The position numbers and the translations under genes were made by a program. From Candidatus Latescibacterota bacterium (GTDB lineage Bacteria; Latescibacterota; UBA2968; UBA8231): a stretch of 64,000 nt of DNA. Where the stretch lies: positions 1 through 64,000 of the forward strand of contig JADZBP010000206.1 of NCBI GenBank assembly GCA_020852055.1. The letters run 5' to 3'. This document shows positions 2,371-56,729 of this stretch, one piece after another (position 1 is the stretch's first letter; each line of letters begins with the position of its first letter). Under the pieces are notes generated by a model that was not told the DNA's origin, ran no database searches, and saw nothing but the letters and a program-made list of their open reading frames with translations.

Positions 2371-4875
2371 CTAGCGCCACTCGTGCTTGGGGTAGCGCCG
2401 GCGCAGTTCTTTCTTGAGTTCGGGGTAGGTGTTCTGCCAGAAGCTGGACAGGTCGGCAGTGACCTGCAGCGGGCGGAAGTGCGGACCGAGGATCTCCAGC
2501 AACACCCGCTGCCGGCCGCCGGCCACGGCCGGGCTTTCGCGGACATCGTAGAGTTCCTGGATCTTGGCCCGGCCGCGGGGCGGACTGCCGGCCTGGTACT
2601 CGAGTTTGAGGCGATGCCCGTTGGCCAGTTGCAGGCGCAGCGGGGCCATCTGTTCGACGAATTGCTGGTCCTGCCACGAGAGGGCCCCCTGCACCGCCGG
2701 CAGGCAGGCCCGCTCGCGGAGCTGGCTATAGCGGGTGGCCCCGGCGACGATCTCGTGCAGGATCACCCGCACTTCCTCGGGGGTGTAGGTGAGCAGGCCC
2801 CGCTCGGGAAACCAGGCTGCCACTGCCCGGGCGCGGGCCAGCCACTGCTCCACACTCTGATCCCAGCGCTCCAGCACCAACTCGCCGGCCTCGATGCGCG
2901 CCACCAGCATCTCGGCAGCCTCTGTAGGATTGGCCTTGGGCAGCACCCGTTGCGCGTACACCAGGCCCTCGAAGCTGTGCACCTCGCGCTGCTCCACCGC
3001 CCGCATCTCGCTGTTCCACATCATCTCGATCCGCACCACCACCCGCTCTGCCTCCACCTCCTCCAGCCACTCCGGCTCGATGGCACTGGCCAGCGAAAGC
3101 ACGGTCCGCACCGCGCCACTGATTTCTAGCTCGCGCACCTCGGCGGCCACCAGCATGCCGGCCGGCCGCGCCGCGCTCTGCCGGTCCAGCTCCACCCGGC
3201 GCTGGCCGGCCATGGCACAGCTCAGGTTGTCGGGGTCGCGGCGCAAAGCCACCTGGTCGTAGAAGGCGGCGATCAGGCACTTGCTCAACTCCTCGGTCTG
3301 CCCGGCGCTGTCGGGAGAAAGGCCCGCCTGCCGGCACAGGTCGCGGTACTGGCGGCTGACCTGGTCCACCTCGCGGCAAGCCTGGGCGCTGAGGCCCAAC
3401 GCGGCGCAGGCCTGCACCTCGAAACGGGCCTGTTTGGCCCTTTGGAACCCCTTCTCGCGCACCTCCAGGTCCGAGGGATAGGCCTCGTCGCTCTGGGTAT
3501 ACTGAGGGCGCAGGGGCGGGGTCAGGATATCGCGTTCACCCAGCAGGGCCGCCCACACCAGAGCCCGGCCCAAACAGCGGCGGCGATGGGCCTCGACCAG
3601 CAGCCGCGACAGGCGGGGGTGCATGGGGAAGGCGGCCAACTGCCGGCCCAGCGGGGTGAGAGACCCTTCCTCATCGAGCGCCCCCAACCCCTGCAGCAGA
3701 CGGCGGGCACGGGCCACGGCCAATTCCTGCGGCGGTTCCAACCACTGCAGGCCCTCCAGCTCCAGCCCCATCTCCTCCAACTGCAGCAGGGTCTCGGCCA
3801 GGTCCACCCGCTGGATCTCGGGCACCGCGTGGGCCGGGCGGGCGTGGTGTTCGGCCTCGGACCACAGCCGGGTGCAGGTGCCGGCAGCGGTGCGGCCAGC
3901 CCGGCCCTGACGCTGGTCGGCGGAGGCCTGGCTGATAGCTTCGATCATCAGCACGTTGATGCCGCGCCGCGGGTCGTGGCGGTGCACGCGGGCCAGGCCG
4001 CTGTCGATGACATGGCGCACCCCCGGAATGGTGATGGAGGTCTCGGCCACGTTGGTGGCCACGATCACCTTGCGCCGGGCCGCAGGGCGCAGGGCGGTGT
4101 CCTGCTGGTCGGCGGGCAGGGAACCGTGCAGGGGGAGGAAGAACAACTCTTCGTTCCAGCGCAGCTGCTGGCAGGCCTGGATGGTGCGGCGGATCTCGTA
4201 CCCGCCGGGCATAAAGATCAACACTTCGCCTTCGGCACCGCCCTCCAGCAGGAGGCGCAGGGTGCGGGCGGCCTGGTCCCAGACCGGTTCCTGTGTAGGG
4301 CGGGGCAGGTAGCGGGTCTCCACCGGGTACGTGCGGCCACTGGCTTCCACGGCCGGGCAACCGAGATGGCCGGCCACGGCGCGGGTCTCCAGGGTGGCCG
4401 ACATCACCACCAGTTTCAGATCAGGGCGATGGGTTTCCTGCAGGCGGCGGGTCAGGGCCAGGGCCAGGTCGCTGGAGAGACTGCGCTCGTGGAATTCGTC
4501 CAGCAGCACCGCGCCCACCCCCGACAACAAGGGGTCGTGCTGGATCAGGCGCAGGAAGATGCCTTCAGTGAGGAAGCGGATGCGGGTGCGGGGGCTGATC
4601 CGGCTTTCGAAACGGGTCTGGTATCCCACTTCTTCGCCCAGAGGGCTGCCTACTTCCTCCGCCACGCGGGTGGCCACCCAGCGGGCGGCCAGGCGGCGGG
4701 GCTGCAGCACCAGGATTTGGCCCACTACCGCACCGCTGCGGCCCAGGATCTGCGGCACCTGGGTGGTTTTGCCCGAGCCCGTGGGGGCGCTCAGCACCAG
4801 ACGGTTGGACCGGCGCAAATGCTCGGTGATCTGCGCCTCGACGCCGAGGATGGGTAGGATGGGGGGTTCGGTCAT
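2371..4875 (-). CDS. hrpB: ATP-dependent helicase HrpB
   Basis: APTGSGKTTQVPQ, LLDEFHERSLSSDLAL, MSATLE, TNVAETSITIPGV, QRQGRAGRTAAG; HrpB-type C-terminus. Confidence 0.92.
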   Translation of the reverse strand: MTEPPILPILGVEAQITEHLRRSNRLVLSAPTGSGKTTQVPQILGRSGAVVGQILVLQPRRLAARWVATRVAEEVGSPLGEEVGYQTRFESRISPRTRIRFLTEGIFLRLIQHDPLLSGVGAVLLDEFHERSLSSDLALALTRRLQETHRPDLKLVVMSATLETRAVAGHLGCPAVEASGRTYPVETRYLPRPTQEPVWDQAARTLRLLLEGGAEGEVLIFMPGGYEIRRTIQACQQLRWNEELFFLPLHGSLPADQQDTALRPAARRKVIVATNVAETSITIPGVRHVIDSGLARVHRHDPRRGINVLMIEAISQASADQRQGRAGRTAAGTCTRLWSEAEHHARPAHAVPEIQRVDLAETLLQLEEMGLELEGLQWLEPPQELAVARARRLLQGLGALDEEGSLTPLGRQLAAFPMHPRLSRLLVEAHRRRCLGRALVWAALLGERDILTPPLRPQYTQSDEAYPSDLEVREKGFQRAKQARFEVQACAALGLSAQACREVDQVSRQYRDLCRQAGLSPDSAGQTEELSKCLIAAFYDQVALRRDPDNLSCAMAGQRRVELDRQSAARPAGMLVAAEVRELEISGAVRTVLSLASAIEPEWLEEVEAERVVVRIEMMWNSEMRAVEQREVHSFEGLVYAQRVLPKANPTEAAEMLVARIEAGELVLERWDQSVEQWLARARAVAAWFPERGLLTYTPEEVRVILHEIVAGATRYSQLRERACLPAVQGALSWQDQQFVEQMAPLRLQLANGHRLKLEYQAGSPPRGRAKIQELYDVRESPAVAGGRQRVLLEILGPHFRPLQVTADLSSFWQNTYPELKKELRRRYPKHEWR

Positions 4876-29881: not shown

Positions 29882-29954
29882 GGCTGCGCCCCAGGGAGTC
29901 GAACCCCGATAACATGGTCCAGAGCCATGTGTCCTGCCATTGAACGAGGGCGCA
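29881..29954 (-). tRNA. tRNA-Gln(CTG)
   Basis: Minus strand tgcgccc...catggctctggaccatg...ggttcgactcc...gggcgcagcca; anticodon loop CTCTGGA; encoded CCA. Confidence 0.9.
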
Positions 29955-29971
29955 ATACTGCGATTAGTGGC

Positions 29972-30063
<92 letters not shown>

Positions 30064-30103
30064 AAATTTCAACCCGTACCCCAACTGCGAAACCGGACTC
30101 AGC

Positions 30104-30191
30104 TGGCGGAGGGCGAGGGATTCGAACCCTCAAGGGTGATTAGCCCGGCGGTTTTCAAGACCGCTGCCTTACCAATTAGGTCTAGCCCTCC
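30104..30191 (-). tRNA. tRNA-Ser(TGA)
   Basis: Minus strand ggagggctagacctaattggtaaggcagcggtcttgaaaaccgc...gggttcgaatccctcgccctccgcca; anticodon loop CTTGAAA. Confidence 0.9.
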
Positions 30192-53446: not shown

Positions 53447-53632
53447 TCAGTGGTGGTGTTCGGCCTCCGGGGCCAGAAAGTGCAACTGACCGTTGTGGCA
53501 GCTCATACAGGTAAGCGGCTGGCCGGCAGCCGGCAAGGGCAGGGTTTTCTGATAGATCTCATCGAACTGGTGATCTGCAGGGGAAGATAGACCGGAGTCG
53601 AGGTTGGCGTCAACTCGGGATGGACTCTGGCG
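53447..53632 (-). pseudogene. Fragment or tail of a c-type cytochrome-like gene (single CXXCH)
   Basis: Minus-frame reading ...SRVDANLDSGLSSPADHQFDEIYQKTLPLPAAGQPLTCMSCHNGQLHFLAPEAEHHH*; no convincing ATG/GTG start or RBS. Confidence 0.4.
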
Positions 53633-54563
53633 GGAGCCGATGCCTGAGGGCCCTCAGGTAGGCGCGGGTGCGGTTGTACCACCACAGGTAGTCGAAAAAG
53701 AGTGCCGGAACGTACCATCGCAGCGAAGCCGCCACCGCCCAGTATACCGGATAGTAGAAAAAAGGCAGGAGTGCCAGTCGGAAGAACAGACGCCTGAGCG
53801 AGAAAAAGGGTCCATAAAAAACATCGAGTCGGAGCAGCGGCGCCAACTCGGGGCGTTTGCGCAAGAGTACCGGCAGGGAGCGCTCACCGTAGGTATACAT
53901 GAGTTGGCAGTGCTGGCGAAAAGGCCGCAGGTGGTGGTGCAGGGAGCGGGCCAGGCTGGCGAAGCGGAAGGTCGCCCCATCCAGATGCAGGCGGTAGCCC
54001 AATTCGAGGTCCTCACCTCCGTAGGTGTTGAAGTCCTCATCGAAGAGGCCCACTCGCAGGAGCTGATCCCGCCGGACCGAGGAGTTGCCGGTGACAAAAC
54101 ACTTGAAAGGCACCGCCTCTGTTTCGCGGAGGCGGTGCACCCCCCGGCTGTCGAGATACTGGGTCAGACAGTCGGCAGGGACCTGCGGCCCGAAGCGGAT
54201 ATGGCCGATGGCCACCGTGTTGGCCTGTTGGTGAACCTGGGCGTGAGCGCGCAGGAATCCAGGTTCTACCGTCATATCGCTATCGAGGAAAACCACGACC
54301 TGGCCACAGGCCGCCCGTATACCGGTGTTGCGGGCCCGGGCCCGCCCCTGATTGGTCGAATGGCGGATGAGGCGCAGGGGAAAAGGGCCCGCAGCCCGGG
54401 GGTACTGGTCGGGGTTGAAGAGCTGCGACGCATCGTCGACTACAATGATCTCCAGAGACGAGGCCGGATACTCCTGGACGGCCAGGCTCTGTACGGCTGC
54501 CAATAGGCGTTCGGGTTCATTGTAGGTGGGGATGATGACACTGATGGAGAGGGGGGAGTCCAT
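53610..54563 (-). CDS. Glycosyltransferase family 2
   Basis: ISVIIPTYNEPERLLAAVQSLAVQEYPASSLEIIVVDDASQ, ARARNTGIRAACGQVVVFLDSDMTV, FDEDFNTYGGEDLELGYRL. Confidence 0.93.
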   Translation of the reverse strand: MDSPLSISVIIPTYNEPERLLAAVQSLAVQEYPASSLEIIVVDDASQLFNPDQYPRAAGPFPLRLIRHSTNQGRARARNTGIRAACGQVVVFLDSDMTVEPGFLRAHAQVHQQANTVAIGHIRFGPQVPADCLTQYLDSRGVHRLRETEAVPFKCFVTGNSSVRRDQLLRVGLFDEDFNTYGGEDLELGYRLHLDGATFRFASLARSLHHHLRPFRQHCQLMYTYGERSLPVLLRKRPELAPLLRLDVFYGPFFSLRRLFFRLALLPFFYYPVYWAVAASLRWYVPALFFDYLWWYNRTRAYLRALRHRLPPESIPS

Positions 54564-54571
54564 CGACAGGA

Positions 54572-55690
54572 TCAGAGACTGGCGTAAAGGGAGAGCAGCC
54601 TGGGAGCTTCCTGTTCCCAGTTATAATGCTGCGCCGCGGCCAGCGCTGCCTGGCGGTAGGTCTGAAGGCGGGATGGATCAGCAAAGAAGCGCTGCACCTT
54701 TTCGCGGATATCCCGCAGATCCTGGGGATCAGCCACCAGACCAGCGCCAGACTCTTCGACCACGGCTCGCATATCGGGAAAGTTGCTGGCCAGCACCGGT
54801 AGGCCTGCCATCAGGTACTCGAAGAGTTTATTGGGCAGGGAATAATAAAAACTCTTGCCCGTGCCTTTGATCAGACACAACCCCAGATCCGCGGAGCAGG
54901 TATAAGAATGCAGCTCGGCAAAGGGGACCCGGGGGATAAAGTAGACCCGGCCTTCGAGGTTTTGGCGCCGTACCAGCTCCTTGAGAGCCCCTTCCCTAGG
55001 TCCGTCGCCGATCAGAACCAAGGCCAGATCTTCGTCCAGGCCGGCAAGGGCCTCGATCTGTTCGGCCAGACCGTTGTCGGTAAGGAATCCCCCTTGATAC
55101 AGCACCACCGGCCGGCCGGCCGCCAGCCCTAGTTCGCTGCGGATGCGGTTGCTTTCCACGGGTGAGCGGTAGAGGGGCAGGTTGCGCACCACGGTCACCT
55201 GGTCCAACCCGTACCGTTCCTGCAGCGACTGAGCGATGGAAGTGCCCACCGTGATGGTGCGGTGGACCTGCCGGATGAGCCGCCGTTCCAGCAGCGCCCA
55301 GAAGTGTCGAATCAGGGGCCGGTCGACCAGGGAAGACTGCTCGATCCAGAATTCGTGGGAATCGTAGACCAACGGCACATCGCGCTGTTGGGCAGCAGTG
55401 GCGGCCGGCCACAGCGCATCCAGATCGTGGGCATGGTACACATCAGCGTGCATCGCCAGCAACAAGGGCCGTGCCTGTCGCCAGAAAGCTGGATAGAGGA
55501 TGCGCAGCGAGCGAGAGCGGTCGATGGGAATCAGGTGGAGGTCGATGCTCTCCCAGCCCTGCAAAGGCGAGGGGTCGAAGGACGAAGAGACGATGGAAAC
55601 CCGATGTCCCGCCTGGCTCAGGCACTGGGCTTCGCGGAAGACCCGGTAATCGAAGCGCAGATCGCCGAACACCACCATACAGATGTGCAT
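54572..55690 (-). CDS. Glycosyltransferase family 4 (GT-B)
   Basis: DVYHAHDLDALWPAATAAQ, VVLYQGGFLTDNGLAEQIEALAGLDEDLALVLIGDGPREGALKELV, LPNKLFEYLMAGLPVLASNFPDMR. Confidence 0.92.
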   Translation of the reverse strand: MHICMVVFGDLRFDYRVFREAQCLSQAGHRVSIVSSSFDPSPLQGWESIDLHLIPIDRSRSLRILYPAFWRQARPLLLAMHADVYHAHDLDALWPAATAAQQRDVPLVYDSHEFWIEQSSLVDRPLIRHFWALLERRLIRQVHRTITVGTSIAQSLQERYGLDQVTVVRNLPLYRSPVESNRIRSELGLAAGRPVVLYQGGFLTDNGLAEQIEALAGLDEDLALVLIGDGPREGALKELVRRQNLEGRVYFIPRVPFAELHSYTCSADLGLCLIKGTGKSFYYSLPNKLFEYLMAGLPVLASNFPDMRAVVEESGAGLVADPQDLRDIREKVQRFFADPSRLQTYRQAALAAAQHYNWEQEAPRLLSLYASL

Positions 55691-55725: not shown

Positions 55726-55758
55726 CAAAAAACGCGCAGCCCAAAGATGAGCTGCGCG
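55726..55758 (-). terminator. Intrinsic terminator or attenuator upstream of the GT-B gene
   Basis: Perfect 8-bp GC stem cgcgcagc/gctgcgcg with six T on the minus strand; 36 nt before the GT-B start codon. Confidence 0.75.
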
Positions 55759-55772
55759 GCGGAGAAAATCAA

Positions 55773-55942
55773 GGAGTGTGGCGACCGAAGGGTGGGATCA
55801 CAAGCCCGCAGCTAAGATCTTCAAACGAGGCGGTGTGGGGAGGTAATTGCTGAAGATCTTAGAAACTCGAAAAGGGGGGATCGAGCTCCGCAGTATGAAT
55901 GATCTACACGCTCAACGGATCGCCACACTCAATCCTTTTTTT
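55773..55942. ncRNA. Candidate structured RNA (strand ambiguous, family unknown)
   Basis: Closing stem gagtgtggcga 55774-55784 / tcgccacactc 55920-55930; internal perfect 12-bp stem 55812-55823/55851-55862; hairpin 55866-55885; T7 on plus end, intrinsic terminator just past the minus end. Confidence 0.45.
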
Positions 55943-56020
55943 AGGCGACCGGGGTCCACGCTCGCAGGTGAGCGTGGATCAGAGCGGATCTTTTTCTCCG
56001 CTCAACTATGGATAATTTAC

Positions 56021-56102
56021 ACACACTGATGTGTGTTGTCAAGGCAATTTTGATAAGGGGTAAATAAAAGCCCTTTCGCATACACTCTCAAGTGTGTGTA
56101 TG
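56021..56102. promoter_or_regulatory. Paired palindromic operator candidates upstream of XRE gene
   Basis: ACACACtgatGTGTGT (56021-56036) and ACACTctcaAGTGT (56082-56095), dyad centres 60 bp apart. Confidence 0.5.
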
Positions 56103-56147: not shown

Positions 56148-56729
56148 ATGGCTGCGGTGAGGAAAAACGATAGATCAGGCAATGAGATGCGCTTCGCAGA
56201 TCTGATTCGGGATGCCCGGATCAAGAAGCGGCTCAGCCAGCGCCAACTAGGGGAGCAGATCCTTACCCCGGGCCGTCCTAAGGGTATCTGGAACACCTAT
56301 ATCGGACAGATCGAGAAAGGGGATAAGATCCCCTCCGACGAAATCTGCAAGAAGTTTGCCGAAGTCCTCGAACTCGATTTGACCCAGGTATTGCTCGCAG
56401 CCTATGAGGCGCGGGTCGAATTGACCGGTTCCGACGAGGCCATTGGCTTGTTCCGCAAGATGCGCTTGGTGTTGAACGATCCGGTGGTCCAGCGCCTGCT
56501 CGATGCCGAGGATACCATCGATCCACAGATCCTCGAGGCCCTCACCAACACCGATATCCGCAAGATCATGGCTGAGGAGGCTTGGCGCGATCTGTTGATT
56601 CGCTGCTATCGCCTCAAGGGCAAGCGGAATATCCTGGCGCTGCTGACCCTGGTCGAGTCCATGTCCGACAAGCAGTGGAAGGGATTGATCAGCATGCTCG
56701 ACGCCATGGGACTAGAAATCGGCGAATAA
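56148..56729 (+). CDS. XRE-family HTH regulator with C-terminal domain of unknown function
   Basis: RFADLIRDARIKKRLSQRQLGEQILTPGRPKGIWNTYIGQIEKGDKIPSDEICKKFAEVLELD. Confidence 0.82.
   Translation: MAAVRKNDRSGNEMRFADLIRDARIKKRLSQRQLGEQILTPGRPKGIWNTYIGQIEKGDKIPSDEICKKFAEVLELDLTQVLLAAYEARVELTGSDEAIGLFRKMRLVLNDPVVQRLLDAEDTIDPQILEALTNTDIRKIMAEEAWRDLLIRCYRLKGKRNILALLTLVESMSDKQWKGLISMLDAMGLEIGE

Follow-up and report, generated by a model that had tools for sequence, protein, structure and literature searches.

A conserved structured RNA ahead of a glycosyltransferase operon in Latescibacterota, with a hairpin loop predicted to pair with transaldolase and zwf leaders

Background

Several groups of described RNAs share one trait or another with the locus studied here. 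C-rich, single-stranded hairpin loops that pair with G-rich mRNA are found in 6C RNA and in the RNAIII-type loops of S. aureus, and FasX-type small RNAs bind their target mRNA at its very 5' end. Replication of pT181 and pIP501 is controlled by antisense RNAs that bind a leader as it is transcribed, beside an intrinsic terminator. The leader RNAs of polysaccharide operons, EAR among them, are structured, belong to a glycosyltransferase operon and have a terminator downstream. In the sgrR-sgrS-setA locus, the small RNA ends at a terminator that precedes an ORF expressed by read-through (PMC6582626); according to the same review, where small RNAs affect the premature termination of their targets, the effect depends on Rho.

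The present locus belongs to a window of 64,000 nucleotides, the whole stretch of DNA that was analysed, from a Candidatus Latescibacterota bacterium. Encoded on the minus strand from about position 55932 to position 55727, in intergenic DNA just 5' of a GT-B glycosyltransferase gene, is a structured RNA; a search of the literature for noncoding RNA in Latescibacteria found none.

The organisation of this locus resembles that of SgrS: a regulator gene, a promoter, a small RNA, an intrinsic terminator and a putative read-through ORF (PMC6582626), with a predicted link to sugar-phosphate metabolism. The RNA is nevertheless not a member of the SgrS family. It has no match in Rfam, SgrS included, its regulator is of the XRE type, and Hfq was not found in the family of genomes that carry it; moreover, its predicted seed is a structured hairpin loop, which would target an mRNA at the 5' end rather than at a ribosome-binding site.

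Like 6C RNA and RNAIII, the new RNA would offer C-rich hairpin loops for pairing with G-rich mRNA, but its fold and phylum are different, and its predicted pairing is specific, over 15-18 nt, rather than a general anti-Shine-Dalgarno one. As with FasX, to which the RNA is unrelated, pairing is predicted near the 5' end of the target, here at a site that starts about 6 nt into the mRNA; in one genus, labeled g7, this site also abuts an intrinsic terminator. Pairing with a leader that adjoins an intrinsic terminator, predicted here, recalls pT181 and pIP501, except that the two RNAs come from separate loci and that pairing is predicted to hinder termination, not to promote it. Finally, the RNA lies in a glycosyltransferase operon with a terminator on its 3' side, as EAR does, but it has no Rfam match and its predicted partner is outside the operon.

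Results

The RNA folds into a closing helix P1 and an inner helix P2, followed by a three-way junction with two hairpins, P3 and P4; its parts and neighbours are listed in Table 1. The pairings named in a preliminary description of this DNA, made from the letters of the sequence, are all present: the repeats gagtgtggcga (55774-55784) and tcgccacactc (55920-55930), which form P1 in the RNA, the 12-bp helix 55812-55823/55851-55862 with its 27-nt loop, and the hairpin at 55866-55885. The folding energy of the 220-nt block on the minus strand is -87.5 kcal/mol, against -55.4 kcal/mol for 200 dinucleotide shuffles, none of which equals it (z = -8.3); the fold of the plus strand is weaker, with z = -3.4.

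Table 1. Features of the locus; positions are those of the window
Feature	Position	Strand	Details
GT2 glycosyltransferase gene	53610..54563	-	PF00535; next in the GT-B operon
GT-B glycosyltransferase gene	54572..55690	-	PF13439 + PF00534; ATG at 55690
Intrinsic terminator	55727..55758	-	11-bp stem + T6; 36 nt before the GT-B start
Structured RNA domain, conserved	55774..55930	-	closed by P1 (55920-55930 / 55774-55784)
Hairpin P4	55812..55862	-	12-bp stem + 27-nt loop 55824-55850; stem covaries
Invariant core of the P4 loop, predicted seed	55826..55843	-	CCTCCCCACACCGCCTCG; conservation and complementarity to tal/zwf leaders
Side hairpin P3	55866..55885	-	C-rich loop (CTCGAtccccccttttCGAG); repeats, folds, covariation
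5' extension of the transcript	55933..56007	-	outside the conserved RNA; 0 to about 110 nt across genomes
Sigma70-like promoter	56014..56042	-	TTGACA-17-TAAATT; -35 56042-56037, -10 56019-56014; start near 56007
ACAC..GTGT palindrome in promoter spacer	56018..56036	.	second copy 56079-56097; repeat D1/I2
Divergent XRE-type HTH regulator gene	56148..56729	+	PF01381

When the gap is compared by blastn with 60 related genomes, the block is found in 13 others, mostly without the remaining gap sequence, and the homologues (n = 14) coincide with the structured block. The earlier proposal of an unannotated structured RNA in the leader of GT-B is borne out, on the minus strand, and exactly this block is conserved in other genomes. 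A covariance model was built from 12 sequences, and the models R1 and R2 were run on the family and on the rest of the phylum: the RNA is present as a single copy in 18 of the 25 family genomes, and in none of the 39 other genomes of the phylum. On the window itself, R1 returns positions 55774-55932 with 144 bits. The minimum free energy folds of the 14 close homologues agree, and divergent genera retain P1, the loop motif and the C-rich loop of P3, with an additional hairpin on the 5' side.

The preliminary description had proposed to look for covariation in homologues, and the helices do covary. In the model-fitted alignment A5, 23 of the 49 pairs have changed on both sides, against a mean of 10.4 in shuffled alignments; the two-sided changes amount to 50 cells, against 14.1 in shuffles, 92% of the cells pair, and sliding the partners destroys the signal. 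The unfitted alignment A1 still has two-sided changes in 7 of its 44 pairs, and in the stem of P4 they affect 7 pairs out of 12. Among the cells that are not Watson-Crick pairs, 108 are G-U and 19 are A-C, which implies that the minus strand is the RNA. An RNA on the plus strand, for which an end in T7 had been suggested, is ruled out: the T7 is not conserved, and the promoter, the terminator and the wobble pairs all belong to the minus strand. A short ORF over the loop (ACC TCC CCA CAC CGC CTC GTT TGA) was also considered and rejected: in alignment A1, a 1-nt indel just 5' of it, between genera, disrupts the frame.

Rfam 15, applied to the whole window, yields three tRNAs elsewhere as the only matches at the gathering threshold, and up to E = 10 the element has chance-level matches only, in line with the earlier statement that it fits no riboswitch, 6S, tmRNA, SRP or RNase P consensus. 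The three tRNA genes are clustered on the minus strand, at 29884-30190. Taken together, the data make it almost certain that the element is a real, conserved structured RNA that has not been described before.

The promoter given in Table 1 is the sole promoter-like site on the minus strand there. A promoter TTGACN-17/18-TANNNT is at the same relative place in 17 of the 18 loci that carry the RNA, and the last one (L056) has TTGACA-17-TAATTT, slightly below the cut-off. The predicted start is within about 6 nt of P1 in nine genomes, so that the transcript is, there, essentially the RNA. Palindromes of the form ACAC-N-GTGT, in the promoter spacer and upstream of it, are confined to genera that have the HTH gene (L040-L049, L055-L057) and are probably the operator of this divergent regulator. 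The HTH gene is beside the RNA in exactly two genera, g1 and g7, the same two whose transaldolase (tal) or zwf leaders carry a complement of the loop. In genus g2 (L050, about 4590-4625), the RNA promoter overlaps a perfect palindrome, TGCTGAA-N8-TTCAGCA, whose sequence suggests that a different regulator acts there.

At the other end, the terminator that had been placed on the minus strand shortly before GT-B is indeed there, with its stem at 55758-55733 followed by T6. All homologues have a terminator hairpin at the same place, with differing sequence, and its U tract is strong in the two closer genera; it starts 2-22 nt past the closing helix, as a separate module, and is separated from the ATG of GT-B by 24-42 nt in the two closer genera and by 64-88 nt in the divergent ones. 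Predicted promoter and terminator hairpin are thus both conserved across the 18 loci, and in none of them was a promoter found between the terminator and the ATG of GT-B. Locus L042 has one extra weak promoter match just downstream of the first, and elsewhere there is none between the RNA promoter and GT-B. Expression of GT-B should therefore need read-through of the terminator.

This arrangement would suit a purely cis-acting leader of the GT-B operon, one that senses a ligand or binds a protein and so controls read-through of the terminator; the match to the tal and zwf leaders, presented below, would then be incidental, or mark a common RNA-binding protein. Such a leader would also account for a strict linkage to GT-B, and the linkage is strict. 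GT-B is present in 19 of the 47 genomes of the class, and the RNA in 18 of these 19 and in none of the other 28; a GT-B orthologue is directly downstream of the RNA, in the same orientation, in 18 cases out of 18, followed by GT2 and usually by a CAAX-protease gene, with the terminator hairpin 24-88 nt before the ATG. The single genome with GT-B and no RNA (G016; L054, 4930-5001) has GT-B close behind a lipoprotein-type gene and lacks the RNA together with the promoter and terminator, as one block. However, when nascent RNAs halted before the 3' arm of the terminator are folded, no conserved partner is found for the 5' arm, and P1, with a pairing probability of 0.8-1.0 in the nascent RNA, is formed in every homologue. 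Mutually exclusive terminator and antiterminator folds were not found, and consequently the classical riboswitch or attenuator that the layout had first brought to mind is unsupported. Moreover, the invariant part of the RNA is an open hairpin loop and not an internal pocket, and this loop has a complement at the start of another mRNA in two genera. On balance, we consider a purely cis-acting leader unlikely; antitermination before GT-B by way of a protein is possible.

The loop of P4 contains an invariant stretch of 24 nt, which is unpaired and costs 1-1.7 kcal/mol to open. Its core is identical in 13 of the 14 blastn homologues, with one change in G002, and a core CUCC..CAC..CGCCUCRU is recognisable in all 16 distinct sequences. 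The core was searched for, with up to 2 mismatches, in 64 genomes. In the genome of the window (G000), the only other match of the 18-mer within this limit is at C196:8891-8908, and the control has 0. This match is in the 5' leader of the transaldolase gene, which is followed by zwf, and its mRNA-sense strand is complementary to the loop. With a 13-mer complement of the loop, there are 34 matches in 25 genomes, 13 of which are the RNA itself, against 6 for the reversed control.

The site is found on the sense strand in 5 of 5 transaldolase leaders of g1, and in 10 of the 10 zwf leaders of g7 that were seen. Counted from the -10 box of a recognisable promoter, the site begins after 12-14 nt, or about 6 nt into the mRNA, and it is conserved between g1 and g7, while the promoter and the stretch to the start codon are not. 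In g7, the site is the loop and the 3' arm of a hairpin, reading ACAC-GAGGCG-GTGT, which is immediately adjoined by an intrinsic terminator (GGCCATGGCG..CGCTGTGGCC and a T tract); the g1 leader retains the second hairpin, without a clear U tract. Rfam has no matches at the target loci, and in the literature combining zwf and small RNAs nothing looked relevant, as judged by titles and abstracts.

Contiguous pairing extends over 18 nt with tal, and over 15 nt plus a bulge with zwf; in the other 200-nt segments of the window, the loop reaches at most 11 contiguous nt. Cofolding both RNAs with RNAcofold was uninformative because loop-loop pairing cannot be represented, and the opening cost plus the duplex energy was used instead: the net pairing energy, after both partners are opened, is -16 to -20 kcal/mol. 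In the computed bound form, where the site is occupied, the zwf terminator has lost its lowest base pairs. Since duplex energy alone separates the tal leader poorly from GC-rich sequence (best window -39.9 against -42.9), the argument for a target is built on the contiguous run, which is unique and conserved. The loop core is nearly unvarying in g1 and g7, hence loop and target show no compensatory covariation. In g2, g3 and g5, the RNA is present with an altered loop; a search for cognate sites of these altered loops gave nothing convincing, and a loop complement is absent from those tal leaders of g3 and g5 that were seen. Genomes G001 and G003 keep the tal site, and neither the RNA nor GT-B was found in their assemblies, which are 84% and 89% complete.

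A further intergenic element, at L139 (reverse, 1503), L140 (reverse, 260), L141 and L142 (forward, 1503), contains AAGGCGGTGTGGGGAGGTAGTTTTTGG, which in g7 genomes is complementary to nearly all of the loop, over about 23-24 nt. It is conserved, is located about 140 nt 3' of a response-regulator-like gene, ends in a terminator and has no Rfam match. Its complementarity would allow it to be a second target or a sponge RNA.

The complementarity could also be read with the roles exchanged: the zwf or tal leader, terminated early, would be the active small RNA, acting as a regulator or a sponge, and its target or decoy partner would be the structured RNA ahead of GT-B. The zwf leader of g7 is a compact unit of promoter, hairpin and terminator, the response-regulator element provides another G-rich copy before a terminator, and there is a precedent in E. 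coli, where 5'-UTR fragments are known to act as sponges of small RNAs (PMC7815308). However, a U tract is missing from the g1 leader, and the structured RNA ahead of GT-B exists in three further genera, in both examinable ones of which the leader site is absent; the RNA is therefore not dependent on the leader site, and we hold this exchange of roles to be improbable.

Alternatively, AGGCGGTGTGGGG might be bound as DNA by a transcription factor, in the RNA gene, in the tal and zwf promoters and elsewhere, with complementarity between the RNAs as a by-product. The closeness of the site to the transcription start fits this proposal, as does the ACAC-N6-GTGT that it forms in g7, which resembles the presumed HTH operators. 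But in g1 and at the response-regulator site the palindrome is absent while the loop complement is kept, and within the RNA this sequence invariably forms the loop of a hairpin that covaries, a loop that is open even where its sequence has changed; a DNA site as the sole explanation is thus very improbable. As for a 6S-type RNA of this lineage that binds RNA polymerase, a likeness already raised in the preliminary description, its length of about 200 nt, its long closing helix and the failure of RF00013 to find 6S RNA in 40 relatives hardly make it credible, given that the fold has a three-way junction and two C-rich hairpin loops where 6S RNA is a rod with a central bubble, that the RNA is limited to a single family, and that there is no Rfam 6S match even at E = 10.

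Discussion

An invariant loop that is complementary to the start of the tal-zwf mRNA makes it probable that the RNA controls enzymes of sugar-phosphate metabolism by base pairing. From the sequence evidence, we put the probability that the loop acts in trans on the tal or zwf leader at roughly 0.6.

In detail, we propose that the RNA represents a new family of structured small RNAs of about 200 nt, which would have a sigma70-type promoter of their own for transcription on the minus strand, probably controlled by the divergent XRE-type regulator, and would end at the terminator before GT-B. The unpaired loop of P4 (ACCUCCCCACACCGCCUCGU) would pair in trans with ACGAGGCGGUGUGGG, predicted to be the extreme 5' end of the transaldolase-zwf mRNA in g1, or of the zwf mRNA in g7. 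In g7, pairing would open the leader hairpin, deprive the terminator of its bottom base pairs and so favour read-through into zwf; antitermination as the outcome in this genus is a tentative proposal. In g1, where the hairpin is without a U tract, pairing would more likely alter the stability or the structure of the 5' end. Transcription would enter the GT-B operon itself by reading through the terminator of the RNA, as it enters setA through SgrS.

On this proposal, the RNA would be expressed, the HTH protein would control it, and the pairing would take place in the cell; as to the sign of control, activation would be slightly favoured. Hfq (PF17209) was found in none of 25 relatives, and pairing would thus need to work without Hfq, or with another chaperone.

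Assuming that all these steps hold, they would form a circuit of two RNAs: the structured leader RNA of a glycosyltransferase operon would be set free where its terminator ends transcription, and would serve in trans as an antisense antiterminator at the leader terminator of zwf, or tal-zwf, and couple the synthesis of surface glycans to the pentose-phosphate pathway. We regard the complete circuit as possible rather than probable.

Conclusions

The RNA would be a new family for which a specific mRNA partner is predicted, and it comes from a lineage that has no cultured models and no detectable Hfq or 6S RNA. It would link sugar-phosphate metabolism to a glycan operon, in an architecture that is like that of SgrS and has no detectable relation to it. 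If antitermination is what takes place at the zwf leader, this would be a further case of a trans-encoded small RNA acting on an intrinsic terminator.
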